Of a stretch of 60,299 bases of DNA, positions 8,001-53,720 are shown in pieces. A model generated the notes under the pieces. The model searched no databases, was not told where the DNA came from, and worked only from the letters and a program-made list of their open reading frames with translations. Position 1 is the first letter of the stretch; each line of letters starts with the position of its first letter. This stretch comes from Ferrithrix thermotolerans DSM 19514. Lineage in GTDB: Bacteria; Actinomycetota; Acidimicrobiia; Acidimicrobiales; Acidimicrobiaceae. A program made the position numbers and the translations under genes. The stretch lies in assembly GCF_900128965.1 (NCBI RefSeq), contig NZ_FQUL01000013.1:1-60299 (forward strand). The letters are read 5' to 3'.

Positions 8001-8056
8001 GTCCCTTGACCTTTCACCTTTACCCCCCAACTCTCACAAGCAACCACTCATCGCCA

Positions 8057-9685: not shown

Positions 9686-9710
9686 GTTGCTCACCCACCC
9701 AAAACCTAGA

Positions 9711-11506: not shown

Positions 11507-11564
11507 TTACCCCTCCAACATCAACGGGTCGATCGAATCACCTCTAGAAGTCTCGCACAGATTC

Positions 11565-11624
11565 AAAGTGGGCGTTTCGCGACGACCGTCCATCGCAAGA
11601 GCCGTCGCGAAACAAAACCACTTT
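11565..11624 (-). promoter_or_regulatory. Bipartite hairpin between binding-protein and permease genes
   Basis: An inner perfect 11-bp repeat (11574-11584 with 11603-11613, GTTTCGCGACG / CGTCGCGAAAC) is flanked by a second matching 7-bp repeat (11565-11571 with 11618-11624, AAAGTGG / CCACTTT), giving an 18-bp stem with a small asymmetric internal loop. It has no T-run. In MalE-MalF-type operons a hairpin at this place stabilises the upstream message or partly stops transcription; that role is inferred here. Confidence 0.65.
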
Positions 11625-11635
11625 AGGAGATGCCC

Positions 11636-35907: not shown

Positions 35908-37521
35908 CTACTGCAAAAGACCCATAGCTTGATCTAAAACATCGGAGATCTCGACGGTACTGTCACAGAATCCAGCAATGTGAGCATCGGGTCTCACGAC
36001 TACTGCCTGGCTATCATCCACACGTAGTGCGTGTCTAAGAGTTTGCGTGGGGTCTACCTCGGACCACAGCAAAAGCTGTACATAAGGGCGATCACAGGCG
36101 CTCTTACACATAGAGTTTCCAAAGACGCTAAAGCCATCGTGCAGGAGTTCCCTTACACGTGTTTTGGGAAGAAACTCCTCCCCAAGCGCAACATCTGGGA
36201 AGCACACTCCAGGTACCGGTGGTGGAGCGGAACCTCTCCGTGGGCGACCCTTGAAGGTTCTATCCGGTCTCTTCGTCGTCAAAGGAGAGTCCACATACCA
36301 AAAGGGTTCATAAAGCCGACCCGAGTCGACCTGTTCTATCGCCTCATCGTCACCAGAGCGTGCTCTTTCTAGAAGTGACACCCGCCTTCTGCGCTCTTCT
36401 TCGCCATGGGGAACCAAGAACCGCATCGTCTCGCTCGTAACCTCCAAGTTCTCCAGAGCGGCCGCCCGCCGCTCTGCGTCATAGGAGTCGAGAAGCTTCT
36501 CTCCAGCTACCTTCGCCTTGAGGAGACCTAGCTTCCAAGCCAGATTCTCTGCATCGTGAACGCCGCTGTTGAGACCCCGAGCCCCAAAAGGAGCTACTAC
36601 GTGGGCAGCATCTCCCGCCAGGAAGACCGCTCCGCTACGAAACCTAGAGGCTACTTTGCCGTGAAACCTGTATATAGATCTCCATAGCAGCTCGTAGGGT
36701 CGCTCCCCCACGATCTCACGTATACGTCTTTCAACCCCACCTGTCTCTTCCTCAGAGGTTAGATCAAATCCATCTGGGACTTGCCAGTCGATCCTCCAGA
36801 TTCCGTTAGGTTGCTCATGAATCAACACTTGACGTCCCCTATTCCAGGGTGGATCGAAGTAAAACCGCCGTTCTCCTTTGAACTCATCGAGTTCACATCG
36901 GATGTCACATATCAAGAAGAGATCATCAAAGGTTCGTCCCTCAAACTCTACGCCCAACTGCGACCTGAGCCTGTCCGAGTGAACTCCACTGCATAGCACC
37001 ACCCACCGCGACCGAAGGACCTGGTGGCCGAGGGAACCTTTTATCTCGACAAAGGCACCTTGCTCATCGGTCCCTACGCCAACGGCCTCTACAGCGTATC
37101 TAAGGTCGATCAATGGGTTTTTTGATATTAGGTCAAGGAGAACCGACTCGACCTCGGCCTGTGAGATATTTACAAATGGCGGAAGTATGGACCGGTCAGG
37201 GTCTTTAAGGTCGACTACAAATAGTTCATGGTCTTGATAGTAAGTCCGGCCCTTAGACCAAGTAAGCCCCATTTCAGCTATGACACCAGCCCCCAACGAA
37301 GCCCAGGTATCAAGTACCTCTCGTTGCTGGCAAAGTGACTTCGATCCAGGTGCGCTGCGTTGTTCTAGCTGTTCTAATACCAGCGTTCGAAGACCCCACT
37401 TCGCACAAGCTAAAGCGGTGCTCTGACCCACCGGACCCGCTCCTACAACCACTACGTCGAAGAGGGAGTTCGAGACCAGACGGTCTTGATGACCTGCTGT
37501 CACCTCTGCAGCTGGTTCCAT
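35908..37521 (-). CDS. FAD-dependent aromatic monooxygenase
   Basis: A 537-residue flavoprotein hydroxylase of the PheA/MhpA type. It has the N-terminal FAD fold VVVVGAGPVGQSTA, the second FAD motif FLAGDAAHVVAPFGARGLNSG with the DG/GD signature, and a C-terminal thioredoxin-like tail. It would hydroxylate a phenolic acid with NAD(P)H and O2. Being last in a minus-strand group with hmgA, it may form homogentisate from a hydroxyphenylacetate, or a related ring-cleavage substrate; this is inference. The ATG at 37521 overlaps the MBL gene by 22 nt, and a GTG at 37503 overlapping by 4 nt (GTGA) is an alternative. Confidence 0.8.
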   Translation of the reverse strand: MEPAAEVTAGHQDRLVSNSLFDVVVVGAGPVGQSTALACAKWGLRTLVLEQLEQRSAPGSKSLCQQREVLDTWASLGAGVIAEMGLTWSKGRTYYQDHELFVVDLKDPDRSILPPFVNISQAEVESVLLDLISKNPLIDLRYAVEAVGVGTDEQGAFVEIKGSLGHQVLRSRWVVLCSGVHSDRLRSQLGVEFEGRTFDDLFLICDIRCELDEFKGERRFYFDPPWNRGRQVLIHEQPNGIWRIDWQVPDGFDLTSEEETGGVERRIREIVGERPYELLWRSIYRFHGKVASRFRSGAVFLAGDAAHVVAPFGARGLNSGVHDAENLAWKLGLLKAKVAGEKLLDSYDAERRAAALENLEVTSETMRFLVPHGEEERRRRVSLLERARSGDDEAIEQVDSGRLYEPFWYVDSPLTTKRPDRTFKGRPRRGSAPPPVPGVCFPDVALGEEFLPKTRVRELLHDGFSVFGNSMCKSACDRPYVQLLLWSEVDPTQTLRHALRVDDSQAVVVRPDAHIAGFCDSTVEISDVLDQAMGLLQ

Positions 37522-38462
37522 ATCTCCAAGTCACGCTCCTTGGTCCACACAATTGGATCGGCTATACCATTTAGTTCATCGAAAACCCTTGCCACATCGA
37601 AGGGAACAGTGTGCTCAAAGATCGGCCATGTTGCGTACTTTGGGGCAAGAGCTTTATAGACTGCGTCAAATGCATCTTTTAGAGTTCCCTTCGCCTCGAT
37701 CGTCTTCGCAGTCTCACTTATAAGGGTGTTTAGAAAGTCTCTCGACTGTTCGATAGCGTTATCCACAGCTTTTTCGCCGTAGACGACCTTGCCCCTACCT
37801 CCAACAAGCACCTCGGCACCGAGGGACTTTACCTTGTCAAGAGTACTCGATGCCCACTCTAGGTGGTAGGCGTCGCCTGTGTATAAAGCCGCCTCAGCCT
37901 CCACTAGATCGCCGGCGAAGAGAACTTTCTCCCTTGGAAGCCAAACCACTATGTCACCTTTGGTGTGTCCCTTCCCTAGCCACGACAGGTGAATGGTTCC
38001 TCTGTCCCCTCCAAGATCTATCTCCATATGGTCTCTAAAGACCATGGTGGGATAGGTCAAACCAGGAATTGACTCAGGTTCTTTGAAGAGCCGAGGCATT
38101 CGTTGAAACTCCGAGTCCCAGTCTTCCTTGCCACGCTCAAGAATCAGGTCTCTAGTATTTGTATGAGCTACGATCTCCTCAGCACCAAAGGCCGATGCTC
38201 CCAGCACTCTTACTGCATGATAGTGAGAGAGCACAAGATATCTAATCGGCTTATCTGTCTCCTCTCTAAGCCTCCTAAGCCAGCTCTGCGCTGCCACTGG
38301 AGTTGCGCGTGCCTCGATGCATATCAGATAGTCTCTCGCCTCAATAGCTCCTACGTTGGGATCTCCTTCAGCACTCATCGCATATACCCCTGGAGCGATC
38401 ACTTCAAAGGTCTCTACCTTCTCCGCAAGATCCTCAGAGGATGCAAAGGGTTTTTCACTCAC
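37500..38462 (-). CDS. MBL-fold protein with altered metal motif
   Basis: A 320-residue metallo-beta-lactamase-fold protein in the homogentisate cluster. The usual HxHxDH is LSHYHAVR: H80 and H82 are kept, but Asp and the last His are V84 and R85. The third His (GKGHTKGD) and the bridging Asp (LFAGDLVE) are present, so at most one metal site is likely complete. It belongs to an uncharacterised subgroup. It lies 25 bp after hmgA and overlaps the monooxygenase start, so all three are probably one transcript. It could hydrolyse a pathway intermediate or thioester; no evidence decides. Confidence 0.75.
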   Translation of the reverse strand: MSEKPFASSEDLAEKVETFEVIAPGVYAMSAEGDPNVGAIEARDYLICIEARATPVAAQSWLRRLREETDKPIRYLVLSHYHAVRVLGASAFGAEEIVAHTNTRDLILERGKEDWDSEFQRMPRLFKEPESIPGLTYPTMVFRDHMEIDLGGDRGTIHLSWLGKGHTKGDIVVWLPREKVLFAGDLVEAEAALYTGDAYHLEWASSTLDKVKSLGAEVLVGGRGKVVYGEKAVDNAIEQSRDFLNTLISETAKTIEAKGTLKDAFDAVYKALAPKYATWPIFEHTVPFDVARVFDELNGIADPIVWTKERDLEIWNQLQR

Positions 38463-38487
38463 CTATCTCTACCTTCGCTTTCTTTTC

Positions 38488-39672
38488 TCATCTATCCGAT
38501 AGACCATGCCGCTTAGACCAACTCCAGGGGTACCCCGAGTCCTCTATGAGATAAGCGGCGTCCCCAATACGTAAGGGATTGAAGGTGTCTATCATGACTG
38601 CTACCTCTTCGGTCCCCTTAGCCTCGAGGGACGCTTCTACCGATCCCGGCTGAGGTCCATGAATAAAACCGGCTGGGTGGAGAGAGATCGACCCTTCTTC
38701 GATGCCAGACCCCCTCCGGGACATAAAGTCACCTTTATAGTAAAAAAGCACCTCATCTGAGTCTACGTTTGCATGACTATAAGGAGCCGGCACCGCCGTT
38801 GGATCAAAGTCATAAGGTCTAGGAAGAAATGAGCATACGACAAAGCCGTTACCCTCGAAAACCTGATGCACAGGTGGCGGAGCGTGAAATCTCTTCACTA
38901 TGGGTTCAAAGTCATAGATGCTAAAGACGAAGGGGTAGAGACAACCGTCCCAGCCAACCACATCGAAGGGGTGTGAAGAGTAAAAGTAGCGTGTGATGCC
39001 TCCGCGATGTTTCACATAAACATCAACATCTTCTCCCTCTAAAACAAGTGGAAGCTCAGGTCCAACAAGGTCTCTCTCACAGAGAGGTGCCGACTCAAGA
39101 AACTGACCTCTAGCAGTCAAGTATCGCTTTGGAAACTCGATATGACCTTTCGCCTCAACCGTCAAAAGATCAAGGTACCCAGAACCGGTCGGAACAACCT
39201 TGAAGGTGGTTGAGGCTGGAATTAGAACGTAGTCCCCGCTTTTTATCTCCAAAGATCCAAAGACACTTTGAATCTGACCTTCACCCCGAACAACAAATAA
39301 ACACTCGTCACCAAGCGCGTTCCGATACAATACCGAAGGAGTATCAGAGCTCACAAAGCCAACTTTTATCTCGTCATTACCGAGCAACACGCGTCTGTCC
39401 AGGTTCGCATCGCCGCCTTTTCCTGAGAGCAGACCGGTCTTAAAGTGCCTCGGTAGAAGCGGAGCGTTAGTGTGCAGCTGTTCCTCTAGATCTCCAGTTA
39501 CCGACTCGACCTCCACGATCGCCGTTGGCGGGCGCATGTGGTAGAGAAGCGAAGACTCTGCAGCGAAACCTTCCTTTCCCATTAGCTCTTCAAAGATGAG
39601 GTTCCCCTGCTCATCACGGAAAATCTGATGACGTTTTCTTGGAATCTCGCCAACGCGTCTGTAGTAAGGCAA
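38488..39672 (-). CDS. hmgA: Homogentisate 1,2-dioxygenase
   Basis: Cleaves homogentisate to maleylacetoacetate. The product begins PYYRRVGEIPRKRHQIF, the hallmark N-terminus of the family, and the iron ligands are in LHPAGFIHGPQPG (His) and DSDEVLFYY (Glu). I start it at the TTG at 39672 with AGGGGG six bases upstream, giving 394 residues; the frame stays open to 39723 but those codons are not conserved. It is divergent from fahA across about 140 bp and leads the MBL and monooxygenase genes. Confidence 0.93.
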   Translation of the reverse strand: MPYYRRVGEIPRKRHQIFRDEQGNLIFEELMGKEGFAAESSLLYHMRPPTAIVEVESVTGDLEEQLHTNAPLLPRHFKTGLLSGKGGDANLDRRVLLGNDEIKVGFVSSDTPSVLYRNALGDECLFVVRGEGQIQSVFGSLEIKSGDYVLIPASTTFKVVPTGSGYLDLLTVEAKGHIEFPKRYLTARGQFLESAPLCERDLVGPELPLVLEGEDVDVYVKHRGGITRYFYSSHPFDVVGWDGCLYPFVFSIYDFEPIVKRFHAPPPVHQVFEGNGFVVCSFLPRPYDFDPTAVPAPYSHANVDSDEVLFYYKGDFMSRRGSGIEEGSISLHPAGFIHGPQPGSVEASLEAKGTEEVAVMIDTFNPLRIGDAAYLIEDSGYPWSWSKRHGLSDR

Positions 39673-39782
39673 GACACACCCCCTAAGAAGTCTACAACGC
39701 CGAAGTCTAGCAAATACGAGCACAAAACTAAAGGTCTAAAGAGTTCAAAGGCTCAGAGATGGCTGCTCTTTGGTAGATACCT

Positions 39783-39803
39783 GCAGATATCTGCGAGTAC
39801 AAT
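39783..39803 (+). promoter_or_regulatory. fahA -10 box and adjacent palindrome
   Basis: TACAAT (39798-39803) is followed by 8 nt and then the fahA ATG, with no ribosome site, so the message may be leaderless. Just before it GCAGATATCTGC (39783-39794) is a perfect 12-bp palindrome, positioned between -35 and -10, where a repressor of the divergent fahA/hmgA pair could bind. Confidence 0.45.
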
Positions 39804-39811
39804 CCTAAGCA

Positions 39812-40999
39812 ATGAAGGAACACGAGTGGCTTGAGATCGACCAAGACAACGGATACTCTATCGACCATCTTCCCCTTGGCATAGACTTTAGCGGCGTCGT
39901 GACCCGGGTAGGAGATACCATCATCCAGCTATCGAAACTGACCGACTCGATAAAAAGCGTAGATCAAAAGGCTCTATCTAGCAACAGCCTAAACCACCTC
40001 TTTAGCCTCGGACATAAAGCTATGGAGAACCTACGAGAAGAGATAGTAGAGATAACCAGGGAGGCTACTAAAGAACTTCTATCTGCCAGCTATTCATTTG
40101 ACCATGCACGCCTGAAGCTACCGGTTCAAGTAGGAAACTTCGTTGACTTCTACTCCTCTTTGCACCACGCAACTAACGTTGGACGGCTCTTTAGACCTAA
40201 CGCCGACCCCTTGCCAAAGGCTTGGCGTCATCTACCGATCGCCTACCACGGACGAAGCTCGACGGTTCTACCCTCGGGGACGAAAATCGTAAGACCTAAA
40301 GGTCTCTTTCAAAAAGGGGGCGATGTTGTCTTCTCTGAGACAGGAGCCCTCGACTTTGAGGCCGAAGTCGGCTTTATAGTAGCCAAGGAGTCCGAGGTTG
40401 GAACCCCTCTTTCACCATCGGAGTTCTATGACTACGTTGCCGGCGTGGTACTGGTAAACGACTGGTCGGCGAGGGATATTCAAGCCTTTGAGTACGTTCC
40501 ACTTGGACCGTTCTTAGGAAAGTCCTTTGCCACCTCGATGTCGTGTCTCGTGACTCCGATCGAAGCCCTTCTTGGGGCTCGGGTACAACCGGTCCGCCAG
40601 GACCCCACCCCAAGTTCCTACCTGTTTGATCCTGATCCGTGGGCTTTGGATATCGGGCTTTCGATTAAGATAAATCAAACGACCGTCTCCTCTCCTCCTT
40701 TTCGATCAATGTACTGGACTCCTGGACAGCAGCTGGCTCACATGACGATCAACGGCGCGAATGTTACCTGCGGGGATGTATTTGCATCGGGAACGGTTTC
40801 AGGGGAAAATGAAGATCAGGTAGGATCCCTTATCGAACTTACCCAAGATGGAAGACGGCCGATAACCTTAGTGGACGGTACTAGCCGCTCGTACCTTGAC
40901 GACGGAGACGTAGTAACTATATCGGCAACTACCAGGTCTCTAAGCGGCGGGCGACTCTCCTTCGGTGAGGTGATCGGTGAGGTTCTTCCGTCTCTGTAA
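39812..40999 (+). CDS. fahA: Fumarylacetoacetase
   Basis: Hydrolyses fumarylacetoacetate to fumarate and acetoacetate, the last step of homogentisate breakdown. The 395-residue length fits. The N-terminal SH3-like domain is followed by the catalytic domain with NFVDFYSSLHHATNVG, LPIAYHGRSS, the metal ligands in DFEAEVGF and VLVNDWSARDIQ, and GPFLGKSFATSMS. It is divergent from hmgA. Maleylacetoacetate isomerase, needed between the two enzymes, is not in the window. Confidence 0.93.
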   Translation: MKEHEWLEIDQDNGYSIDHLPLGIDFSGVVTRVGDTIIQLSKLTDSIKSVDQKALSSNSLNHLFSLGHKAMENLREEIVEITREATKELLSASYSFDHARLKLPVQVGNFVDFYSSLHHATNVGRLFRPNADPLPKAWRHLPIAYHGRSSTVLPSGTKIVRPKGLFQKGGDVVFSETGALDFEAEVGFIVAKESEVGTPLSPSEFYDYVAGVVLVNDWSARDIQAFEYVPLGPFLGKSFATSMSCLVTPIEALLGARVQPVRQDPTPSSYLFDPDPWALDIGLSIKINQTTVSSPPFRSMYWTPGQQLAHMTINGANVTCGDVFASGTVSGENEDQVGSLIELTQDGRRPITLVDGTSRSYLDDGDVVTISATTRSLSGGRLSFGEVIGEVLPSL

Positions 41000-41161
41000 A
41001 GACTTCTTGGATCACTATCGAGACCACCCAGACCAAAAGTTCGACCTTAGAAAGGTGGAGGTTTGCATTGGACAAGACTTCACAGTCGCCTCGAATTACT
41101 GCACTTGTATCGTCAAGTCTTGAATCTCAACGCTAGAGAATTCACGCCATCTAAGGCTCCG

Positions 41162-41824
41162 TCACCAAAGCGACCGCTCTAACATCTCCAACGGCTCGAT
41201 CATATACGTCGCAGAAACTCGATAGTCAAGTCTCTGCTGATAAGGAGGGAGGAACATCTCTTTAAAGCTGCGGCTGGTCTCTGGACGCCTAGCGGCTTGA
41301 TCTCTAGATGCGATCAAGTCTTCCGTGACAATCGATCTGTCGTAGACGAAGAGATCAAGCAGGTCTTTCATGTCGGAAACGTCAGGATCAAATCCCCAAA
41401 CCGTCTCCAGTTCTCTAGTAATAAGGAAGCTGAGGCCAACTGCACCCATAAGTATCAGATGAGATATCAGACGGGGATTCGCTATGGCAGACGCAATTGC
41501 AAGAGCGCCGCCAAATGAGTTTCCCACAAGGGCGAAGTTCTCCAGTTCGAGCGCCTTCGCAAAGCCAAAGAGGTGCCTCACCCATTTATCTAGAGAAAAC
41601 ACAAATCCATCTGGGACCGTTGTATAGCCAAATCCGGGAAGGTCAGGCGCAACGACGCGAAACTCTTGACTAAGGCGGGGCATCACCAACCTCTAGTTTG
41701 CATATGCCGTTACACCCGGACCAGAGCCATGTAGCAATATCACATTGGGACCATCACCTACATCTAGGTAGTTGGTGTTGACACCCTCTATGTCTACTCT
41801 GCGACCTATCTCACCCAGCTCCAA
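41162..41824 (-). pseudogene. dmpD: Broken 2-hydroxymuconic semialdehyde hydrolase (dmpD)
   Basis: From a TTG at 41824 (AAAGGAAATGTT upstream) the frame reads GEIGRRVDIEGVNTNYLDVG and VILLHGSGPGVTAYAN, then hits TAG at 41693-41695 where relatives have the Trp of ANWR. It continues in the same frame with RLVMPRLSQEFRVVAPDLPGFG and the nucleophile elbow VGNSFGG. The frame ends with TGA at 41162-41164 after EMLERSLW, about 80-90 residues short of the family, so the catalytic Asp and His are lost. Two lesions make this a pseudogene of the alpha/beta hydrolase branch of meta-cleavage. It is the last gene of the dmp operon. Confidence 0.85.
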
Positions 41825-42304: not shown

Positions 42305-42496
42305 CTAACGACCCAATTCCTTAGCTGTGACCCCGCCTATACCCCAGTGGCTCTTGGGGACGTCGACTAATACGACTCGAACAGACTCCCTGTTTACACC
42401 CAGAACCGAGACCGTTGTATCTGTAAGTTCCGCTATCAGCTGCTCTTTTATCTCCTCCGAGCGACCTTCTAACATCTCAACGTGAATTAGTGGCAC
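42305..42496 (-). CDS. dmpI: 2-Hydroxymuconate (4-oxalocrotonate) tautomerase
   Basis: A 63-residue tautomerase that ketonises 2-hydroxymuconate. After removal of Met the catalytic Pro1 is exposed (PLIHVEMLEGR), with Arg11 and a second conserved Arg (about 39 in ESVRVV). The GTG start at 42496 lies inside the end of dmpG, overlapping by 20 nt. It is needed only for the dehydrogenase branch, in line with the loss of dmpD. Confidence 0.9.
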   Translation of the reverse strand: MPLIHVEMLEGRSEEIKEQLIAELTDTTVSVLGVNRESVRVVLVDVPKSHWGIGGVTAKELGR

Positions 42497-43514
42497 CTTG
42501 ATCGGCCCTTCCCTGGCTCAGCTCGATAGCGACATCAACGATCATATCCTCTTGTCCCCCAACCATCTTGCGTTGTCCAAGCTCAAGGAGGATCTCAGCT
42601 GGATCTACTCCGAATCGCTCCGAGGCTCTATATGCATGGAGCAAGAAACTTGAGTATACGCCTGCGTATCCTAACATCAACGCGCTTCTTGAGATGGTGG
42701 TAGAAGAAGGTAAGAGAGGGCGTGCCTTCTCTTCGGCAACTCTCATAAGTTCGAAGATATCCACACCAACTACCTCATGCCCTGCCTTATCGAGCGCCGC
42801 AGCAACCACCTCGGTTGCAGTATTTCCAGCTCCAGCACCAAAGCCAGCCATTGCCCCATCGATCCAGGTAGCACCGCTCTCCACCGCAACCAGGCTGTTG
42901 CCCACCGCCAGACCTAGGTTGTTGTGACCGTGAAATCCAATTTCGACCGCATCATCGAGTGCGGACCGTAGCGCCCTTACTCTTGCACCAACCATGTCAG
43001 GCAACAAAGCTCCAGCAGAATCTGTGACATAGACGACATCTGCCCCATAAGAGGCCATCAGTTGTGCCTGCTTGGCTAGATCATCGGGCTCCAACATGTG
43101 AGCCATCATCAAAAACCCCACCGCCAAGGCACCGCGACTTTTTGTCATCTCGATGTGCTGAGCCGAGATATCCGCCTCTGTGCAATGCGTTGCGACACGC
43201 ACCACCTTAGCACCTAGGTCCAAGGCTCTCTCGAGCTCCACGTGAGTGCCGATCCCTGGGAGAAGAAGCACCGCAACCTTTGAGTCCTGAACCGTGTCTA
43301 CCCCTATAGAGATCATCTCTTCGTCGCTAAGAAGAGATCTTCCATACTGAAGCGACGACCCACCAAGACCATCACCGTGTGTAATCTCGATAACAGGTAT
43401 CCCCGCACGATCGAGTCCCGAGGCTAAATCTGCTACGTTTTGTTCGTTGAACTGATGCCTCACTGCGTGACTTCCGTCTCGGAGGGTAGTATCCACTAGA
43501 GTGATTTGAGCCAT
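42477..43514 (-). CDS. dmpG: 4-Hydroxy-2-oxovalerate aldolase
   Basis: A 345-residue HMGL-like barrel that splits 4-hydroxy-2-oxovalerate into pyruvate and acetaldehyde. It shows LVDTTLRDGSHA (metal Asp and Arg), ITHGDGLGG, and the metal motif GFHGHNNLGLAVGNS. It forms a channelling complex with the acylating dehydrogenase DmpF, whose gene ends 8 bp before. AGGAGAAGCT precedes the ATG. Confidence 0.95.
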   Translation of the reverse strand: MAQITLVDTTLRDGSHAVRHQFNEQNVADLASGLDRAGIPVIEITHGDGLGGSSLQYGRSLLSDEEMISIGVDTVQDSKVAVLLLPGIGTHVELERALDLGAKVVRVATHCTEADISAQHIEMTKSRGALAVGFLMMAHMLEPDDLAKQAQLMASYGADVVYVTDSAGALLPDMVGARVRALRSALDDAVEIGFHGHNNLGLAVGNSLVAVESGATWIDGAMAGFGAGAGNTATEVVAAALDKAGHEVVGVDIFELMRVAEEKARPLLPSSTTISRSALMLGYAGVYSSFLLHAYRASERFGVDPAEILLELGQRKMVGGQEDMIVDVAIELSQGRADQGATNSR

Positions 43515-43522
43515 AGCTTCTC

Positions 43523-44383
43523 CTATCTTTTTGCTGCATAGACTTGAGCCACCCTGGTGGCCGCGGCGGTCATGATATCAAGATTTCCTGCGAATGGAGG
43601 TAGATAATCGCCTGATCCTTCCACCTCCAAAAACACGGTAACCTTGTTGCCTTCGAACACTGGATCGGTCTTTAGTCGATATCCAGGTACGTAGCTTCGG
43701 ACGTCTGCCTCCATCTCTTTCAATGACTCCAAGATCTCGGTCTCTTTCACCTCTTCAACCTCGACGTAGACGGTGTCCCTCATGATGAGATAGGGTTTGG
43801 CCGGGTTGAGAACGATGATCGCCTTACCCTTTAGCGCACCACCCACCTTTTCAATACCTTGAGCTGTAGTGTGGGTAAACTCGTCGATATTTGCTCTGGT
43901 ACCCGGACCGGCCGACCTTGAAGAGATCGTTGCAACGATCTCTGCGTAGTTCACAGTGGTCACCCTTGAGATTGCAGCCACGATGGGGATAGTGGCCTGA
44001 CCTCCACAGGTTATCATGTTGACGTTGTCTTCATCGACCAGCTGGTCAAGATTGACTACCGGTACAACGTACGGTCCAATCGCAGCGGGCGTAAGGTCGA
44101 TGGCGGTCTTGCCCCACTGTCGATAAAGCACGGAGTTCTTCAGATGAGCTCCTGCCGAGGTCGCCTCCATAACGAGGTCAAAGTCGTCCAAGAAAGGTTC
44201 AAGACCCTCCACACCGGTGTCAAGCACTCGATATCCCTTTGACCGCGCTCGAGCCAGACCGTCTGACTGAGGATCAATCCCAACCATTGCCGCCAAAGAG
44301 AGCTCGGGGGTTCGCTCGATCTTGTACATGAGATCTGTTCCTATGTTCCCAGACCCTACAATTGCAACCCGATAGTCTTTCAA
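43523..44383 (-). CDS. dmpF: Acetaldehyde dehydrogenase (acylating)
   Basis: Converts acetaldehyde and CoA to acetyl-CoA with NAD. It has [13 protein letters not shown] for NAD and the catalytic Cys in [14 protein letters not shown] start it at TTG 44383, two bases after the upstream stop, because AAAGGAG lies at ideal spacing; the frame is open to 44410 but overlaps the upstream gene. The product is 286 residues, slightly shorter than proteobacterial DmpF (about 310), mostly at the C-terminus. It partners with DmpG. Confidence 0.93.
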
Positions 44384-44384
44384 A

Positions 44385-45143
44385 TTACTCTCCTTTGAAA
44401 CAAAGCTCAATAGATGAAAGCTGTTCCACCTTCACCGTCACCACATCACCAAGACTGACCGGCACGGCATCGGTTATCCCGCCGGTCATAACGACATCTC
44501 CCTTACGAAGTCGCTCATTGAATGCGGCCAAGAGACCGATCAACTCCATAAGAGAGTCCACAGGAGATCCCATCACAGCTGAAGTAGAGGCAAAGTGGAT
44601 GCCCTCTCCATTTAGAGATATTTCGACGGCTAGTCTGTCGATCTCCGGTGGCACAGGAACAAATCCTGGGTAGATGCAGTACCCAGCAGCGGAGGTATTA
44701 TCTGCCACCACCTCCTCGACGTTGAACCGGTAACCTTTGAACCTCGAGTCGAGGATCTCAACGGCTACAGTCGCCCCATATAGCTTGGCAATAACCTCAT
44801 CTTTTGAGTCCGAGGGGTCGATGTCTTCTCGCACCAAAAGCGCAACCTCGGGTTCACAACGTGGCTGCACAAAGGCAGAGTGTGGCACTGCGCCACTTTG
44901 ATACATGTCCGCTTCATACAGTCGACCGAATATCGGCTTCGAGATACCCATAGTCACCTGCTTGGGTTTCGAAGTGAGACCCATCTTGTAACCAAGCAGC
45001 CGCTGATCTGGGTAGATCGCCTCGCAGTAGGCGTCCTGAAGCTTATATGCCTCTTTTAGAGTCAGATCGTTGTGTATCTTTCCCTCTAAAAGAACGCCTT
45101 TCCTTCTGGCCTTGATCAGCTCCGCTAAAAAATCGTTGTTCAC
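44385..45143 (-). CDS. dmpH: 4-Oxalocrotonate decarboxylase-like enzyme
   Basis: A 252-residue member of the hydratase/decarboxylase family with [17 protein letters not shown], the metal ligands in CEPEVALLV, and EILDSRF. The GTG start (45143) has GGAGGT seven bases upstream and overlaps the preceding stop by 4 nt; the longer frame from 45200 is unlikely. Two family members in tandem suggest one hydratase (DmpE) and one decarboxylase (DmpH). I assign decarboxylase here by the [11 protein letters not shown] region and pairing, but the two could be swapped. Confidence 0.8.
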
Positions 45144-45925
45144 GCGACGACCTCCAGCTTCAACGTTCCCAGTCCAAGTAGATCGGCTTCGTAAGAGCAA
45201 CCACCCTCTAACGGGACCGCTGCCGCCATTGCACCAGAAAGCACTACCTCTCCGGGAATCATCTCTTCACCGAATCGTCCCAAGGCTCGAGCGAGCCAGG
45301 CAACTGACTCAAAGGGGTGACCCTGAACAGCTCTGGCCGCTCCGGTGGAGACAATCTCTCCGTTCTTTTTGAGCGACATAGAGATCTTGCCAGCCTCAAG
45401 ATCCAGTGGGGATCTCTTTAGGTCCCCGAGAACAAAACATCCTCCCGAAGCTCCGTCAGCGACGGTATCGAATATGGTAATTTTCCAGTCCGTGATACGA
45501 GAGTCGACGATCTCGTACGCACCGACGAGGTACTCTGTTGCCAGCGCCACGTCCATAGCCGTCACAGACGCACCAGAGAGAGGATACTTTAGAACAAGTG
45601 CCACCTCTACCTCCAGACGAGGCGCAATAAAGTCTATAAGAGAGACCGTTGAACCGTTAGGTTTTTGCCATGACCTCCAAAGCGGACCGAAGTCAGGCTC
45701 CATAACATTGAACATCGACTGCATAGCTTTAGAGGTGAGTCCGATCTTGTGACCTACAACTTCATCTCCACGCCCCATACGCTCCTTGGACACTAGCCGC
45801 TGGATCGCATAGGCTTCATGCATAGACATCTTGATCTCATCGCTCAGAGGGGCGATAGGCTGACGACCGTCATCGGCGTCGATTAGCCTCTTAGCCAAAA
45901 GCTGTAAAACAGTTTCCTCTACCAT
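45140..45925 (-). CDS. dmpE: 2-Oxopent-4-enoate hydratase-like enzyme
   Basis: A 261-residue relative of DmpE/MhpD. GHKIGLTSKAMQSMF followed by EPDFGPLW, the metal-binding RLEVEVALVL and YEIVDSRI are typical of the hydratase. It would add water to 2-oxopent-4-enoate to give 4-hydroxy-2-oxovalerate. The gene lies 9 bp after dmpC and overlaps dmpH by 4 nt. Its distinction from the decarboxylase rests on motif likeness. Confidence 0.8.
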   Translation of the reverse strand: MVEETVLQLLAKRLIDADDGRQPIAPLSDEIKMSMHEAYAIQRLVSKERMGRGDEVVGHKIGLTSKAMQSMFNVMEPDFGPLWRSWQKPNGSTVSLIDFIAPRLEVEVALVLKYPLSGASVTAMDVALATEYLVGAYEIVDSRITDWKITIFDTVADGASGGCFVLGDLKRSPLDLEAGKISMSLKKNGEIVSTGAARAVQGHPFESVAWLARALGRFGEEMIPGEVVLSGAMAAAVPLEGGCSYEADLLGLGTLKLEVVA

Positions 45926-45934
45926 CTCATCTTT

Positions 45935-47374
45935 CTAGAGTTTGATACAAACATTTGAGAGCTCCGTGTAAAACTCGAAAGAGTGCACCCCACCCTCGCG
46001 ACCTATCCCGCTTTGCTTCATCCCTCCAAAGGGCGTACGAAGATCCCTGTAGAACCAGGTGTTTATCCAGATGACGCCCGCTTCCAGCTGAGCCGCCATG
46101 CGATGAGCTCGTCTGAGATTAGATGTCCAAAAGGTCGCTGCCAAACCGTAACGCGTATCGTTGGCCTTTGCTATGACCTCTTCCTCAGATCTAAAGGGTT
46201 CTACCGTAATAACGGGGCCAAAGACCTCTTCCGTTACTATCTCGCAACCACTTTTCACATCGACGATAATCGTTGGCTCAAAGAAGTTTCCTTTGGTAAG
46301 GGTCCTTGGGGTACCCCCTCCTGTGACGACCTTAGCTCCGTCTACAACTGCTCTTTCGACAAAGCCTGCCACCCTCTCTTTGTGCTCCTTGGAGATAAGT
46401 GCTCCCATCTGAGTCTTTGGATCGAAGGGGTCTCCAACGACCAAAGCTTCGGCTCTCGCCTTAATCGCATCTACAAATTTGTCGAAGATGGGCTCTTCCA
46501 CGTAGACCCTAGAGCCACAGAGACATACCTCTCCTTGATTGACAAAACTGGAGCGCACCGTCGTCTCGATCATCTCATCAAAGTCACAGTCGGCAAACAC
46601 TATCAGAGGATTCTTTCCTCCAAGCTCAAATGAGACCCTCTTCAGAGTCGACGCTGCGTTAGCCATCACAGCCTTTCCGGTCGAGGTCTCACCGGTGAGA
46701 GAGATGAGATCGACGTTAGGGTGAGCCACTAGAAACTCACCGGCGCTCTGCGGTCCGAATCCATTTACGACATTGATTACGCCCTCCGGCAACCCAACCT
46801 CCTGGGCCGCTCTCGCCAGTTCATAGGCGGTGAGGGGTGTGAGCTCCGCCGGCTTTATCACACAGCTATTTCCTGCGGCAATCGCAGGAGCTACCTTCCA
46901 GGTGAGAAGCAGGAGGGGGAGATTCCAAGGTGATATCAGGCCCGCTACCCCCACGGGACGTCTAAGTGCGTAGTTGATAGCCTGATCATCGCTTTGAAAC
47001 GCCTCCGTGCCAAGGGTCTTGGCGTAGTCGGCAAAAAACCTAAAGTTGAAGATCGACCTAGGAATGTCTAAGGACTTCGAAAGCGTAAGAGGTTTCCCAG
47101 TATCCCTGGTCTCCATCTCCGCCAACTCCTCTGACCTGGACTCAAGGTAGTCGGCGAGTCTATGGATCAGAGCCGAACGCTGGGCGACCGGGATCTTTGA
47201 CCACCTCTTAAAACCCCCTTGAGCTATCTTGACAACCCGGTCAACGTCTTCCTTGGTTGCTTCTTCAACCTCTGCTAGGACCTCGCCTGTGGCGGGATTG
47301 AGATCGGAAAAGCTCTTGCGTTCTTCCGAAAGGACCTCCCGTCCTCCTTCAAAACTCCCAAGCCTTATGACCAC
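45935..47374 (-). CDS. dmpC: 2-Hydroxymuconic semialdehyde dehydrogenase
   Basis: A 479-residue NAD-dependent aldehyde dehydrogenase oxidising the catechol ring-cleavage product to 2-hydroxymuconate. It shows ISPWNLPLLLLTWK, the catalytic Glu in FELGGKNP, the catalytic Cys in NQGEVCLCGSRV, and the C-terminal TPFGGMKQSGIGREGG. The context between catechol 2,3-dioxygenase/DmpP and hydratase identifies its substrate. With dmpD broken, this is the only exit for the semialdehyde. Confidence 0.92.
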   Translation of the reverse strand: MVIRLGSFEGGREVLSEERKSFSDLNPATGEVLAEVEEATKEDVDRVVKIAQGGFKRWSKIPVAQRSALIHRLADYLESRSEELAEMETRDTGKPLTLSKSLDIPRSIFNFRFFADYAKTLGTEAFQSDDQAINYALRRPVGVAGLISPWNLPLLLLTWKVAPAIAAGNSCVIKPAELTPLTAYELARAAQEVGLPEGVINVVNGFGPQSAGEFLVAHPNVDLISLTGETSTGKAVMANAASTLKRVSFELGGKNPLIVFADCDFDEMIETTVRSSFVNQGEVCLCGSRVYVEEPIFDKFVDAIKARAEALVVGDPFDPKTQMGALISKEHKERVAGFVERAVVDGAKVVTGGGTPRTLTKGNFFEPTIIVDVKSGCEIVTEEVFGPVITVEPFRSEEEVIAKANDTRYGLAATFWTSNLRRAHRMAAQLEAGVIWINTWFYRDLRTPFGGMKQSGIGREGGVHSFEFYTELSNVCIKL

Positions 47375-47415: not shown

Positions 47416-48474
47416 TTACCTTGATGCAAACGGTGACAGCGGGCTTCTTAGCCCTCGGGCATGCTCCTCCAAGGAGAAGAAATCCTCCCTGAATATGTCT
47501 CGCTTGAATAGTCTTCTCGCATACAGCGCCGCTATCACGGACTCGACCATAAGGGGTGGTCCTGATACATAGGCGGTATGACCGGTCGCCGTTGCAAAAC
47601 GTTCCTTGAGCACATCTGCAACAGTCCCGCTGTAGACGTCGTCTTCGCCTTTGAGCCCCGACTCGTCTGAGACTGCAAAGTAGACCTTTAGCCCTGTAAC
47701 TCTCTTGGCAAGTTCAGATAGCTCGTCTTTGCAGTAAAGAGAGGACCTGTCTTTAGCCCCAAAGATCACCGCCCCCTCTGTATCGGGGTATCTCTTCGCT
47801 ATCTCATTCAGCATCGCCGCTATGGGAGCATATCCAGTTCCGCCGGCCAGAAATAAGAGGGGTCGAGCGGGTTCACGAAGGAAAAACCGTCCATAGGGAC
47901 CACTAAGAAGAACCTCGTCGCCAAGGGCGATCTCTTCAAAGATCCATTTAGATGCGGCTCCCCCTGGAAGGTACCTTATATGAAAAGTCAAGAGATCGCC
48001 ATCTAGCTTCGCTACTGAGAAAGAACGGGTCTCAGCACTCCCCGGGAGGTGCCACTGAAAGTACTGCCCTGGCAAGATCACGGGTTCGCGATCTGCTCGA
48101 AGAGTAACCAAAACGACGTCTCTTGTCACCTTGTCCATTGCCACAACTGAAGTCACAAGGTCGGAGACTAAAGGGTAGTCGACTCCCTCCTCCTCTTCGA
48201 TCTCGGCTTCAACCACAACATCGCCTTTGGGGAAGCCTTGACACAGGAGGATCTTCCCTTCCTCGCGCTCAAAGTCCATAAGCGCAAAGCCCGAGACGTC
48301 TCTAAGGTCAACTTCCCCATCGACTAGGGTCGCTTTACACGTCCCACACGTTCCATGCGTGCAAGCATGAGGAAGCCACACTCCACTTCGCATGCAGGAC
48401 TCAAGGATCGACTGCGACCTAGACCCTTTCACCACCTTACCTACCGGATCGATGGTAATTTTTACTTCGTCCAT
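47416..48474 (-). CDS. dmpP: Phenol hydroxylase reductase (P5)
   Basis: A 352-residue electron-transfer subunit that passes electrons from NADH to the diiron oxygenase. The N-terminal 2Fe-2S ferredoxin has ligands C38, C43, C46 and C78. The FAD-binding barrel has ETRSFSVA, and the NAD domain has FLAGGTGYAPI. Unusually it is not beside dmpO but two genes further, after the ferredoxin and catechol dioxygenase. It starts 33 bp after the dioxygenase stop. Confidence 0.92.
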   Translation of the reverse strand: MDEVKITIDPVGKVVKGSRSQSILESCMRSGVWLPHACTHGTCGTCKATLVDGEVDLRDVSGFALMDFEREEGKILLCQGFPKGDVVVEAEIEEEEGVDYPLVSDLVTSVVAMDKVTRDVVLVTLRADREPVILPGQYFQWHLPGSAETRSFSVAKLDGDLLTFHIRYLPGGAASKWIFEEIALGDEVLLSGPYGRFFLREPARPLLFLAGGTGYAPIAAMLNEIAKRYPDTEGAVIFGAKDRSSLYCKDELSELAKRVTGLKVYFAVSDESGLKGEDDVYSGTVADVLKERFATATGHTAYVSGPPLMVESVIAALYARRLFKRDIFREDFFSLEEHARGLRSPLSPFASR

Positions 48475-48507: not shown

Positions 48508-49419
48508 TCAGCTCACTACGGATGTAAAGGCCTCATTTAGCTCCCGGTTGTGGTAAAAGATGCCGGTACCCAGTTGCTCAACGGTCCACTCAATGCAGGG
48601 AAAGTCGGGGTATGTAATGTACCCGCCTGCAAACACCTCGTTACGGTTCCCTGAAGGATCAAAGAAGTAGATAGTCTCCCCCCGGGTGATACCGTGGCGG
48701 GTCGGTCCTATGTCGATCGAGGTTCTCGTCTTTGACATAACGTCTGCTGCCCTAAGGAGCTCTTTCCAGTCATCAAGTGCAAAGGCAAAGTGGTGAAGCT
48801 TTGCGTCGGGACCCCCTATTATCGCGATATCGTGCGGAGTGTTCGTCCTAAATAACCACGACGCTAAGATCTGATTACTCCCCGCCTCAGGCACAACCTT
48901 CTCTGAGATGTTAAACTCCAGCACCTCGGTGAAAAACCTTGTAAGAAGCGCAGGATCTTCGGCTGTAATGAGCAGGTGATCGAGCCTAGGAGCGCCGATG
49001 CCCAGCAATCCGTCTGGCCACGGATCAGGGTTGACCGTGCCGACGCTCGTTCCCAATACCTCTATCTCCCGATAGAGCTGCATCACATGCCCCGAAGGCA
49101 GTATCGCCTCAACGGCTTCACCTACGGCATGCTCTTCTTTTCGATGAACCCTTCGAACGGTAAGACCAAATGCAGCCATTTGGTTCTCCAGGTGGTCTAG
49201 GTCTTCGTCCGAGGAGACCTTGAAGCCCATCTTTACCAGACCAGAGCCGCCTTCTTCGAGAACCACTGAGTGATGATCCCACTCGTCCCAGCCCTTGAAG
49301 TAGCTCTTCCCATCGACGCTGTCAGTTAACTGAAGCCCTAAAGTCTCACCGTAGTGCCTCGTAGCCTCTGAAAGATCGTTCACCTTGGCATGAACATATC
49401 CCAATCGAATAACACCCAT
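48508..49419 (-). CDS. dmpB: Catechol 2,3-dioxygenase
   Basis: A 303-residue type I extradiol dioxygenase cleaving catechol to 2-hydroxymuconic semialdehyde. The iron ligands are H148 (RLDHLL), H210 (LHHFAF) and E261 (NRNEVFAGG), and the class signature GPTRHGITRGETIYFFDPSG precedes the last. Two vicinal-oxygen-chelate modules are visible, and the length is standard. The ferredoxin gene upstream encodes its probable reactivation partner. Confidence 0.94.
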   Translation of the reverse strand: MGVIRLGYVHAKVNDLSEATRHYGETLGLQLTDSVDGKSYFKGWDEWDHHSVVLEEGGSGLVKMGFKVSSDEDLDHLENQMAAFGLTVRRVHRKEEHAVGEAVEAILPSGHVMQLYREIEVLGTSVGTVNPDPWPDGLLGIGAPRLDHLLITAEDPALLTRFFTEVLEFNISEKVVPEAGSNQILASWLFRTNTPHDIAIIGGPDAKLHHFAFALDDWKELLRAADVMSKTRTSIDIGPTRHGITRGETIYFFDPSGNRNEVFAGGYITYPDFPCIEWTVEQLGTGIFYHNRELNEAFTSVVS

Positions 49420-49466: not shown

Positions 49467-49796
49467 CTACACCTGCGTACCAGCCTTGCCAGCACGCTCT
49501 AGCCACCGGTAAAGTCCGGAGCGCTTGAATTTATTGTCTTCACACAACATCACGACGGCGTCGCTTTGAGGCATCGCCCTACAAGCAAGGGTTTGAGATC
49601 TCTGAGTTATCAGTTCCTTTGCATGGGGCCTTAACTCAAACTCGCCGCTTTTGACCTCGACCAGACATATGCCGCATCCGCCCCTACGGCATCCGACACA
49701 CATCTGGTACCCTTTTTCAACTAGCGACTCAAGCAACGTCTTTTCAGAAGAGCACTCGAGTTCGATCCCATTTGGTTCGAAACGAACCCTCGCCAT
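49467..49796 (-). CDS. dmpQ: XylT/DmpQ-type 2Fe-2S ferredoxin
   Basis: A 109-residue plant-type ferredoxin with cluster ligands C36, C41, C44 and C72 (VGCRRGGCGICLVEV and TLACRA). In the TOL and dmp systems this protein reduces the oxidised iron of catechol 2,3-dioxygenase and so revives it. It sits directly upstream of the dioxygenase gene and one base after dmpO. The C-terminal 30 residues are basic and not part of the cluster fold. Confidence 0.88.
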   Translation of the reverse strand: MARVRFEPNGIELECSSEKTLLESLVEKGYQMCVGCRRGGCGICLVEVKSGEFELRPHAKELITQRSQTLACRAMPQSDAVVMLCEDNKFKRSGLYRWLERAGKAGTQV

Positions 49797-49797
49797 A

Positions 49798-50130
49798 TCA
49801 GATCGGTACTCTGAGACTCAACAAAGTCTTATGCGTGACTCCTTGAGCCGCTAGGGCAACGTCCATCTGAGGCACAAAAGCCTCGTGCATCAACTCCCAC
49901 GTCGCTCTTTGAAGTGCACCTTGATCGAGGGAGGGATCCGAGGAGAGCCAAGGCACGACTAAGTTCCCCAGAAAATCTCCGAAGGTCATACTCTTTGGCG
50001 CTCTAAAGGCAGCAGGCGAGCAGAACATGTATGAGTCGACAAAGTGCACGTATACCAGCTGGTCAGGCTCGAAAACCTCCGCTCTGTCTCTAGCTTCAAA
50101 GTCGTAGTCTGCATACTTGGTAACGCTCAT
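49798..50130 (-). CDS. dmpO: Phenol hydroxylase P4 subunit
   Basis: A 110-residue subunit of the multicomponent phenol hydroxylase (DmpO/PhhO, gamma-like component of the oxygenase). It shows the family's DYDFEARDRAEVF, LVYVHFVDSYMFCSPAAFRAP and LVVPWLSSDP blocks. The ATG at 50130 has AAGGAGTGGAG upstream and overlaps the dmpN stop by 4 nt (ATGA); the frame open to 50220 lies within dmpN. Confidence 0.9.
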   Translation of the reverse strand: MSVTKYADYDFEARDRAEVFEPDQLVYVHFVDSYMFCSPAAFRAPKSMTFGDFLGNLVVPWLSSDPSLDQGALQRATWELMHEAFVPQMDVALAAQGVTHKTLLSLRVPI

Positions 50131-51635
50131 AACTCCACTCCTTCGCTGTGCCATCTCTTCCAGTTCTTGTCGTCGTTCGATCCCTTGAACTCCCCTGAGT
50201 CCCCCTTGTCGTTGTACCAAGTCAAGACCTCTGGTACGCTTGGCCCACCACAGTTGCCTTTATAGATCTCGTGCACCGGTAGCCACGCCTGCACGTACTT
50301 CTCGGGCTCTCGATCAAAGATCCATTTGCAACCGTCCGAACAGGTCCAGTAGATCTCATCTTTATAAGACGAACTTTTCTGTACATGTTTCGTTGGATCT
50401 CCCGCCTCGGTAAAGGCCATGGGAATCTGGCACACCTGACAGAGTTGGGGAAGTCCTTGGAAGTAGAACCGACCACCAGACTCTGCGATCGAGGAAGCCT
50501 TCTCCCAGAGCGGACGAAACGCCTTGTCAAAGGTCTCCGGGTACTTCTCACTAAACCACTCAAGTTCTTGAGGTTCTGGAGTCGTTGTATGAAACATTGC
50601 AGCGTAGCTAAATGAGTAGAGAACCCAATAGACCTGGTGTGACAGGTACTCCTTCTCCTTCACAGCCTGCTCCACGTGCATAGGAGGACGAATACCATAG
50701 AATGCCAAGTCAGGGAAGAGGCCATTTAGCATCTGCTCTTCGAAGTACAGCTCAAAGGCTTCCTTCCACGACATGAACTTCCGCGGAAGAAGGTAATCCA
50801 TCATGGCAGCTACAAGCGCAGCCACCCTGTAAGAGCGCCAAAACCACTTGTCGATCCATGCTTGGACGATCGGAACGTTATCTTCGTCCTGCTCCAGCAT
50901 AAAGCGTACGGCTTCAAGACCAAGGGTCATGTGTCGTGACTCGTCAGACTGAGCAGAGAACCCAAAAGTCATCGTCGTAAGATCGCCGTTGAAGGATGCT
51001 CCAGACATGAACGGCACAAACAGTAGGTTTGTCAAGAGATACTCAAAACCAAATGAGATTGCAGTTAAGAACTCAAATGGACCCGAGGACACTGCGTCAT
51101 CGAAGAACGACTTTGGCACCGATAGGTACCAGACCCGATCATGCCATAGACGCATGGAGTGAAATCCCTCGTAGTACCGGTTGTAGGGAGACAGAGCATG
51201 GATCTCTGTCTGCGCATGGCGCAACTCGTCCATAGATTGAGCCAGCGCTGCAAAACGGGGCGCTGAACCAGGCATAAAGCGAGCCAGCCTAGAGAATCCC
51301 CGATGCGCCATGTACTCAAGAGGGGTAACGCCTTGGATGAAGAGTTTCAGAGCGTTTAGATATCTAGCGTCAGAGATATTGAGATGCCCCTGACTCTGGG
51401 TAAATCCGTCTAGCACTGCGTAAAAACGCCTGTCTTTTTCCGCTTGGTACTTCCAGTAAGTCTCGATCGTCATACGGAAGGGATCTTCCCATGCGTCCCA
51501 GTCATGTATCTTGATACCTTCAAATGTGTGGAAAGGATATATGTCAGAGTGTTTTTGGTAGGTTGGTTCCCAGTCCAACCCTCTGACCATCGCCCGATAG
51601 TTCTCTTTCGTTGAAAGTTTTTTCTTGGTTGTCAT
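50127..51635 (-). CDS. dmpN: Phenol hydroxylase P3, diiron oxygenase large subunit
   Basis: A 502-residue catalytic alpha subunit. The carboxylate-bridged diiron ligands are all visible: E107 (LEYMAHRG), E137 and H140 (DELRHAQ), E198 (FGFEYLL), E232 and H235 (DESRHM), matching the two ExxH motifs of soluble methane monooxygenase relatives. A Cys-rich module near the C-terminus (CQVC ... CSDGCKW) could bind a structural metal, as in other phenol hydroxylases. It hydroxylates phenol to catechol with O2 and electrons from DmpP. Confidence 0.95.
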   Translation of the reverse strand: MTTKKKLSTKENYRAMVRGLDWEPTYQKHSDIYPFHTFEGIKIHDWDAWEDPFRMTIETYWKYQAEKDRRFYAVLDGFTQSQGHLNISDARYLNALKLFIQGVTPLEYMAHRGFSRLARFMPGSAPRFAALAQSMDELRHAQTEIHALSPYNRYYEGFHSMRLWHDRVWYLSVPKSFFDDAVSSGPFEFLTAISFGFEYLLTNLLFVPFMSGASFNGDLTTMTFGFSAQSDESRHMTLGLEAVRFMLEQDEDNVPIVQAWIDKWFWRSYRVAALVAAMMDYLLPRKFMSWKEAFELYFEEQMLNGLFPDLAFYGIRPPMHVEQAVKEKEYLSHQVYWVLYSFSYAAMFHTTTPEPQELEWFSEKYPETFDKAFRPLWEKASSIAESGGRFYFQGLPQLCQVCQIPMAFTEAGDPTKHVQKSSSYKDEIYWTCSDGCKWIFDREPEKYVQAWLPVHEIYKGNCGGPSVPEVLTWYNDKGDSGEFKGSNDDKNWKRWHSEGVEL

Positions 51636-51650
51636 CTTCTCAATTCCCCC

Positions 51651-51938
51651 CTAGTGAGACCAGCCGATTATGATCTCGTCATCATCCCATTCTTTTACTT
51701 CCCCAAAAAACGATACGATCGACAGATTCATATCGTCGGGATGCCACTCGCGACCAAGCAACCGACTGACCACCGACGCATCGATCACGATGTCTGTGGA
51801 CGACTCAATCCTTAGTATCCCGGGCATCCGACGAACCTGAATGTCATCATTTAGCTCTGAAACTGCATGAACTATCGCCTCAGACTCCTCGCTCTGCGCC
51901 ATGTCGATGCCGGTTAGCTTCGAAATCGATATAACCAT
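51651..51938 (-). CDS. dmpM: Phenol hydroxylase P2 effector subunit
   Basis: A 95-residue cofactorless coupling protein of the MmoB/DmpM family that docks on the oxygenase and adjusts the diiron site. The sequence VRRMPGILRIESSTDIVID and the acidic C-terminal VKEWDDDEIIIGW match the family. The ATG at 51938 is two bases after the dmpL stop, with AGGAGG 11 bases upstream within the dmpL end. Confidence 0.9.
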   Translation of the reverse strand: MVISISKLTGIDMAQSEESEAIVHAVSELNDDIQVRRMPGILRIESSTDIVIDASVVSRLLGREWHPDDMNLSIVSFFGEVKEWDDDEIIIGWSH

Positions 51939-51940
51939 CT

Positions 51941-52936
51941 TTAGACCCTGCCTCCTATCAACTCCTCTACTACTTGCAGCTCTGAGATCCCTTGTGCCAT
52001 CATCTCCGAACTGTCAAGAGAGTCAGGCAGATCGTCCAGCAACGTCCTGAGCGCCAACTCAGCACCGGGAGACCACTTTTCAAACGCTGTTCGCAGGAAC
52101 TCCTGGTTGGAGGAGTTCTCAACCGACAAAAGATGAGAGATGAAGGATCTAACCCATTTTTGATCGTCTAGGTACCAGTCGTAGAAGTATCTAAGAGTCG
52201 ACATAGATAGCCCTTCACCAAGCCCTACGCCTTGCGTCTCAAGACCCCTATAGAGGCTTGGATACATAAGTGGTGACAAGACCGCCGACACAGCCACGAA
52301 CTGCTCGCCCCAATCAGAGAGAACCAGTACGTCCTCTATGTATCTGCGAAGCGGTTGCAGAGCCTCTCGCTCCATCCACTGCGTCTTCGCCTCATCTAGG
52401 ATCTCCACCCCGTTCTCGAACTGCAACGCAAGTTTCGATAGCTGCTGTGCGTTTCCCAGGTGATCAAACCCTGAGTAGATCGCCGCCTGCTCGATCGTAG
52501 TGCCCCAGGCAAATGCACTCATCTGGACCATAACCATCTGCATGCCGTACTCAAGGTGCCTCAGGGGCGTCAGTGTCTCTGCAAAGACCTTTATGAGATC
52601 TTCAGGCAGAGAAGCAAACGCGTTGAACTCTTCTGCATAACTGAGTGTGGACTGCTGATGTTCCGCCGCTTTGTTCCTAGCCTGATTGTACGTGTAGTAG
52701 TAGTACTGCCTAGGGTCCAAAAAGTTGTAAGGATCTCCTACGTCTAAAGCCGTATAGGAGCGATCAAATATCTCATGTTCCGGATCCCAGAGAGGACGGT
52801 AGTGAAAGTTTTCCTCCTGCTGGACCTCGATCGAACCCTCCTCGTATCGATTTGCAGGTCGTCCCAGACGACGCTCTACCCAGTCAAAGCCGACGCGAAC
52901 TGGATCAACAACATTTTGCTTGATCTCATAGGCCAT
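51941..52936 (-). CDS. dmpL: Phenol hydroxylase P1, oxygenase beta subunit
   Basis: A 331-residue ferritin-like beta subunit lacking iron ligands, which dimerises with DmpN. LEYGMQMVMVQMSAFAWGTTIEQAAIYSGFDHLG is positioned as in DmpL (long helices), and SDWGEQFVAVSAVL follows. A strong AAGGGGG site lies before the ATG. It is the first structural gene; DmpK (P0), which usually precedes it, is missing. The 100 bp upstream, after the response-regulator stop, hold repeated motifs. Confidence 0.92.
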   Translation of the reverse strand: MAYEIKQNVVDPVRVGFDWVERRLGRPANRYEEGSIEVQQEENFHYRPLWDPEHEIFDRSYTALDVGDPYNFLDPRQYYYYTYNQARNKAAEHQQSTLSYAEEFNAFASLPEDLIKVFAETLTPLRHLEYGMQMVMVQMSAFAWGTTIEQAAIYSGFDHLGNAQQLSKLALQFENGVEILDEAKTQWMEREALQPLRRYIEDVLVLSDWGEQFVAVSAVLSPLMYPSLYRGLETQGVGLGEGLSMSTLRYFYDWYLDDQKWVRSFISHLLSVENSSNQEFLRTAFEKWSPGAELALRTLLDDLPDSLDSSEMMAQGISELQVVEELIGGRV

Positions 52937-53036: not shown

Positions 53037-53717
53037 TCACACGTCACTTTTCATCATGTACCCGATTCCGCTTTTGGTAACTATGTACTCCTTGCCACAG
53101 TGTCCCAGTTTCTTGCGCAACCTCGAAACCGTCACATGCAACGTAGATACGTACCCTCGGTACTCAGATCCCCAAACCTTGTCCAATAAGGTGTCTGCCA
53201 CCACAACACGACCTCTGTTTTGCGCAAGCACCGTGAGAACCTGATACTCGTTTTTACTCAGATCAACCTCGACACCTTCGACTAGAACTCTGGGTGTATC
53301 AAGCTCTATGACGATGGGGCCGACGGCGATGGGCTGCATTTTGGTCACTTCATGACTTCCTCGTCTCAGCACAGCCTTGATACGAGCGAGGAGTTCGTCT
53401 GAGGCATAAGGCTTGACGACATAGTCGTCGGCACCAAGACCGAGTGTTTCAACCTTGTCGGTGAGGGCATCCCTGGCTGTTACGACGATAACGGGTACAC
53501 TCGAGAAGTCCCTCAAAGCTCTAAGCACATCGAGACCGTCAGAGCCCGCAAGCATCAGGTCTAAGAGCACAAGGTCCACGTCACCGTCTACAACCATCGA
53601 CTTCACCTTTGAGGGATCCTGGGTCGCTCGAACCTCATAACCAAGCGGTTCAAGGAAACGGCGAAGCAGTGCCACTCCACGCTCTTCGTCTTCGACTATT
53701 AGAATCCTCGCCCGCAT
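53037..53717 (-). CDS. OmpR-family response regulator
   Basis: A 226-residue regulator. The receiver domain (1-120) has the acidic pocket VEDEE, phospho-acceptor D53 (LLLDLML), the switch Thr in VIVVTARD and Lys in YVVKPYA. The C-terminal winged helix (about 130-226) reads LSKNEYQVLTVLAQNRGRVV and TLHVTVSRLRKKLG. It is encoded 3 bp after the histidine kinase and 100 bp before dmpL, all in one direction, which makes it the likely activator of the phenol operon (inference). Confidence 0.92.
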   Translation of the reverse strand: MRARILIVEDEERGVALLRRFLEPLGYEVRATQDPSKVKSMVVDGDVDLVLLDLMLAGSDGLDVLRALRDFSSVPVIVVTARDALTDKVETLGLGADDYVVKPYASDELLARIKAVLRRGSHEVTKMQPIAVGPIVIELDTPRVLVEGVEVDLSKNEYQVLTVLAQNRGRVVVADTLLDKVWGSEYRGYVSTLHVTVSRLRKKLGHCGKEYIVTKSGIGYMMKSDV

Positions 53718-53720
53718 CGT

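Follow-up and report, generated by a model that had tools for sequence, protein, structure and literature searches.

We found that, judging from its sequence, the dmpD gene of Ferrithrix thermotolerans DSM 19514 is very probably no longer functional. What remains of it lies at the distal edge of a phenol/catechol meta-cleavage operon that is complete in all other respects. The window, by which we mean the whole stretch of DNA that was analysed, comprises 60,299 nt of contig NZ_FQUL01000013.1, part of a draft genome of 95 contigs that is 98.8% complete. Frame and homology mark positions 41162 to 41824 on the minus strand as a pseudogene of a DmpD/CumD-type meta-cleavage-product hydrolase. Codon 44 is an in-frame TAG (41693 to 41695, minus strand), and the C-terminal third of the protein is missing.

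The dmpD remnant and its operon

The likely start of the remnant is a TTG at 41824 with GAAAGGA upstream, and the frame runs to a TGA at 41164-41162. This gives a length of about 220 codons compared with 273-289 amino acids for intact relatives. Apart from the single TAG at 41695-41693 the frame is open throughout, so that the preliminary description, which saw an intact hydrolase frame around this stop and gave no strand for it, holds for the minus strand. Among solved structures the read-through translation matched CumD best (PDB 2d0d, E 8e-64), with 1iun as a further match and other families far behind. A scan of genome contigs yielded 12 homologous loci at 44-52% identity, and one further homologue (51% identity) was found in a genome of the same order (G404). 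The same-frame match spans about 205 residues, which is far beyond chance, and both the HGSGPG motif and the nucleophile motif GNSFGG are kept in the read-through frame. By descent the remnant thus belongs to the DmpD/CumD hydrolases, its N-terminal two thirds being homologous and both motifs present. As a functional member of this family it falls short in two respects: the TAG interrupts its frame, and of the Ser-Asp-His triad only the Ser motif is kept, the third that carries Asp and His being absent. The single TAG and the absent third bear out the earlier claim that the gene is dead.

The operon lies entirely on the minus strand and reads, from 52936 to 41162, L-M-N-O-ferredoxin-B-P-C-E-H-F-G-I-hbpS-D. 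It opens with the phenol hydroxylase components dmpL, dmpM, dmpN and dmpO (49798-52936), followed by a [2Fe-2S] ferredoxin that is DmpQ-like by position (49467-49796), the catechol 2,3-dioxygenase gene dmpB (48508-49419; the only copy in the genome above the curated cut-off) and the phenol hydroxylase reductase gene dmpP (47416-48474). Three of the pathway genes were assigned by best match with scores below the curated cut-offs: dmpC for 2-hydroxymuconic semialdehyde dehydrogenase (45935-47374, just below), dmpE for 2-oxopent-4-enoate hydratase (45140-45925) and dmpH for 4-oxalocrotonate decarboxylase (44385-45200). The remaining genes are dmpF for the acylating acetaldehyde dehydrogenase (43523-44410), dmpG for 4-hydroxy-2-oxovalerate aldolase (42477-43514), dmpI for 4-oxalocrotonate tautomerase (42305-42496) and an HbpS-like gene (PF03928; 41858-42304). 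With a multicomponent phenol hydroxylase, a catechol 2,3-dioxygenase and open dmpC, dmpI, dmpH, dmpE, dmpG and dmpF genes, several of them assigned below curated cut-offs, this is a phenol meta-cleavage operon with a dehydrogenase branch. DmpC, DmpI and DmpH, previously described as intact, are indeed all open and of full length. As to an ortho-cleavage backup, no gene of the catechol 1,2-dioxygenase family (PF00775) was found in the genome.

HbpS-like (PF03928) genes are also found with catechol 2,3-dioxygenase operons of G404 (L050) and of Solimonas and Comamonas (L026, L035). Immediately upstream of dmpL and likewise on the minus strand, we noted a two-component system consisting of an OmpR/PhoB-type response regulator and a histidine kinase (53037-55169), a possible regulator of the operon that would take the role of a DmpR-type activator.

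Substrate range and the distribution of the hydrolase

The dehydrogenase/4-oxalocrotonate route handles phenol and 4-methylphenol; the ketone formed from 2- and 3-methylphenol requires the hydrolase (PMC2590616). Following established pathway biochemistry, catechol formed from phenol would pass through DmpC, DmpI and DmpH, which would make the hydrolase dispensable; the operon alone should be unable to process the ketone derived from 3-methylcatechol. In its present state the operon is thus expected to support the use of phenol and p-cresol and to come to a halt at the products of 3-methylcatechol. From the gene content it is plausible that the growth range has been narrowed to phenol and p-cresol, or to para-substituted phenols.

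However, it might be possible that the remnant is dead while another alpha/beta hydrolase acts on the ketone in trans, in which case the substrate range would not be narrowed. Although only a truncated remnant of the HMSA hydrolase was found at the phe operon of Geobacillus stearothermophilus, downstream of pheX, this bacterium can grow on 2- and 3-methylphenol (o-/m-cresol) (PMC2590616), and for this reason a narrowing should not be claimed until hydrolase activity in trans has been excluded. The search for another hydrolase suggested in the preliminary description, run with full-length DmpD as the query against the 98.8%-complete assembly, returned no second DmpD-like hydrolase. It returned six other alpha/beta hydrolases, whose matches to DmpD are weak: identities are 20-37%, most matches cover only part of the sequence, and no E value is better than 2e-7. 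These six might supply such an activity, but none of them resembles DmpD as its true relatives do at 44-52% identity, and we regard an activity in trans as rather unlikely, though still a serious alternative to a narrowed range.

Within the class, few genomes have the phenol hydroxylase. A close DmpN was found in only two of the 395 genomes searched, namely the genome studied here and G404 (60% identity), all other matches lying at 26-29%; a genome of the same family (G437) has a DmpN at 73% identity. Both related genomes in which the operon was found, G404 and G437, carry an uninterrupted, full-length DmpD. In three genomes of the same genus there was no match to the catechol 2,3-dioxygenase, and the best matches to dmpD were only at the general alpha/beta-hydrolase level. 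In G437 a toluene/o-xylene-type monooxygenase cluster adjoins the phenol hydroxylase genes on the same contig (L081:1361-6408 and 7310-12738).

Because this operon-bearing relative of the same family combines such a cluster with a retained DmpD, the loss of the hydrolase branch could be read as an adaptive specialisation to phenol and p-cresol in a lineage without toluene-type monooxygenases. In the F. thermotolerans genome no second hydroxylase of the phenol hydroxylase superfamily was detected at E 1e-20. G404 likewise showed only one such hydroxylase, yet it has kept DmpD. The correlation between toluene-type monooxygenases and DmpD is therefore weak, and we consider the adaptive reading doubtful.

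The two lesions and the junction

At the position of the TAG, tryptophan is found (in a YANW context) in all 12 full-length homologues that were aligned, i.e. eleven of the 12 loci from the contig scan together with G404. The thirteenth homologue, from G437, reads WANW, so that Trp is present in 13/13 intact homologues compared. The TAG differs from a Trp codon by a single base. A recoding of TAG was considered and rejected, since TAG is a normal stop here and in fact the commonest one among the neighbouring genes, ending 10 of 24.

The second lesion removes the end of the protein. Intact homologues run about 60-70 residues past the end of the remnant, through HGR-D (catalytic Asp) and CGHW (catalytic His), and the remnant stops where this third begins. 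Both the replacement of a conserved Trp by TAG and the loss of the 3' third with the catalytic Asp and His had been noted before, and our alignment agrees with them. The statement that the Trp-to-TAG change killed the gene stands only in part: the change itself is clear, but the loss of the C-terminus alone suffices for inactivation and may be the earlier event.

What lies beyond the broken end is a block comprising an FAD monooxygenase, an MBL-fold protein, an HmgA-like dioxygenase and a fumarylacetoacetase (35908-40999), separated from the remnant by the junction DNA at 41000-41161, towards which the fumarylacetoacetase gene (fah) converges. Using a frameshift-tolerant profile alignment of positions 41000-41180 against the missing third, we obtained scores comparable to those of shuffled sequence with frameshift penalties of 8-12. 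With the laxest penalty, 6, the score of the junction was borderline, 5 of 250 shuffles being as good. An intact control gene scored 209 compared with 20-29 for the junction DNA. A frameshifted remnant of the C-terminal third was thus rejected as not significant at penalties 8-12 and borderline at 6. A scar of an IS element or repeat was likewise rejected, as the junction DNA occurs only once in the genome and contains no repeats other than weak, short ones. The full-length DmpD query found no displaced C-terminus on any other of the 95 contigs of the 98.8%-complete genome.

The fumarylacetoacetase block is conserved in at least two genomes of the same family (G029, G007), where no phenol operon lies beside fah and other genes follow it. 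Hence the broken end of the remnant marks where the phenol operon borders on a separate block, and a junctional deletion or rearrangement would naturally explain the truncation. The C-terminus would most likely have been lost in such an event, and this event is as likely to have come first as the nonsense mutation. The block itself (35908-40999; L082, L084) may represent a second aromatic pathway, its HmgA-like protein scoring far below the hmgA cut-off.

Over the region that all copies share, the remnant is the most diverged, with a mean identity of 0.455 versus 0.53-0.71 for the intact ones. Of the 60 columns that are invariant in intact copies it retains 50; in a leave-one-out comparison, the intact copies themselves retain 88-100%. 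This divergence agrees with relaxed constraint, though lineage distance could partly account for it. In codon use the remnant differs little from neighbouring genes (0.786), and since the frame is also open apart from the single TAG, the inactivation may be recent.

Could the stop, the truncation or both be sequencing or assembly errors, the real genome having an intact dmpD? The genome is a draft of 95 contigs and the stop is only one base away from a Trp codon, but an error would be needed for each of two separate lesions, nothing else interrupts the frame, and the missing third lies on no contig, contrary to what a misjoin predicts; we think such errors improbable. The preliminary description had allowed that relatives sharing the short form, with demonstrated activity, might overturn its reading, and no relative with the short form was found among the related genomes compared. 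We give almost no credence to a working short protein, made by read-through of the TAG or by a restart at TTG 41689: HGSGPG and GNSFGG are kept in the read-through frame and a 175-aa ORF opens just after the TAG, but either form would be without the catalytic Asp and His third, the restart product would also be without HGSGPG, and both the normal use of TAG as a stop and the lack of short forms among the relatives compared speak against it.

Comparison with known systems

The preferred reading, a dead dmpD at the operon edge, can be compared with three known systems. With the dmp operon of the Pseudomonas CF600 type this operon shares the hydroxylase genes L, M, N, O and P and the pathway genes B, C, E, F, G, H and I. 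In the canonical operon D lies between C and E; here the broken D comes last, no dmpK was seen, and a two-component system lies upstream. The CumD/DmpD hydrolases (PDB 2d0d, 1iun) are collinear with the remnant over about 205 residues including HGSGPG and GNSFGG, and differ from it at the Trp of YANW, where the remnant has TAG, and in possessing the Asp/His third.

In conclusion, the dmpD remnant is an ordinary pseudogene of a dispensable branch, for whose decay there is published precedent. It adds no new mechanism, yet it provides a clear, testable prediction on substrate range and a warning against annotating a meta-pathway operon as complete for cresols. The precedent is the phe operon of Geobacillus stearothermophilus, where a remnant of the same kind of hydrolase likewise forms the distal end of the phenol meta-pathway genes (PMC2590616). 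That cluster is without the semialdehyde dehydrogenase, whereas the dehydrogenase branch is present here (PMC2590616). All that is left of the hydrolase gene there is 115 bp in two overlapping frames (PMC2590616); with about 220 codons in one frame, the F. thermotolerans gene is a second case of a hydrolase gene decaying at the margin of a phenol operon, and the better preserved of the two.
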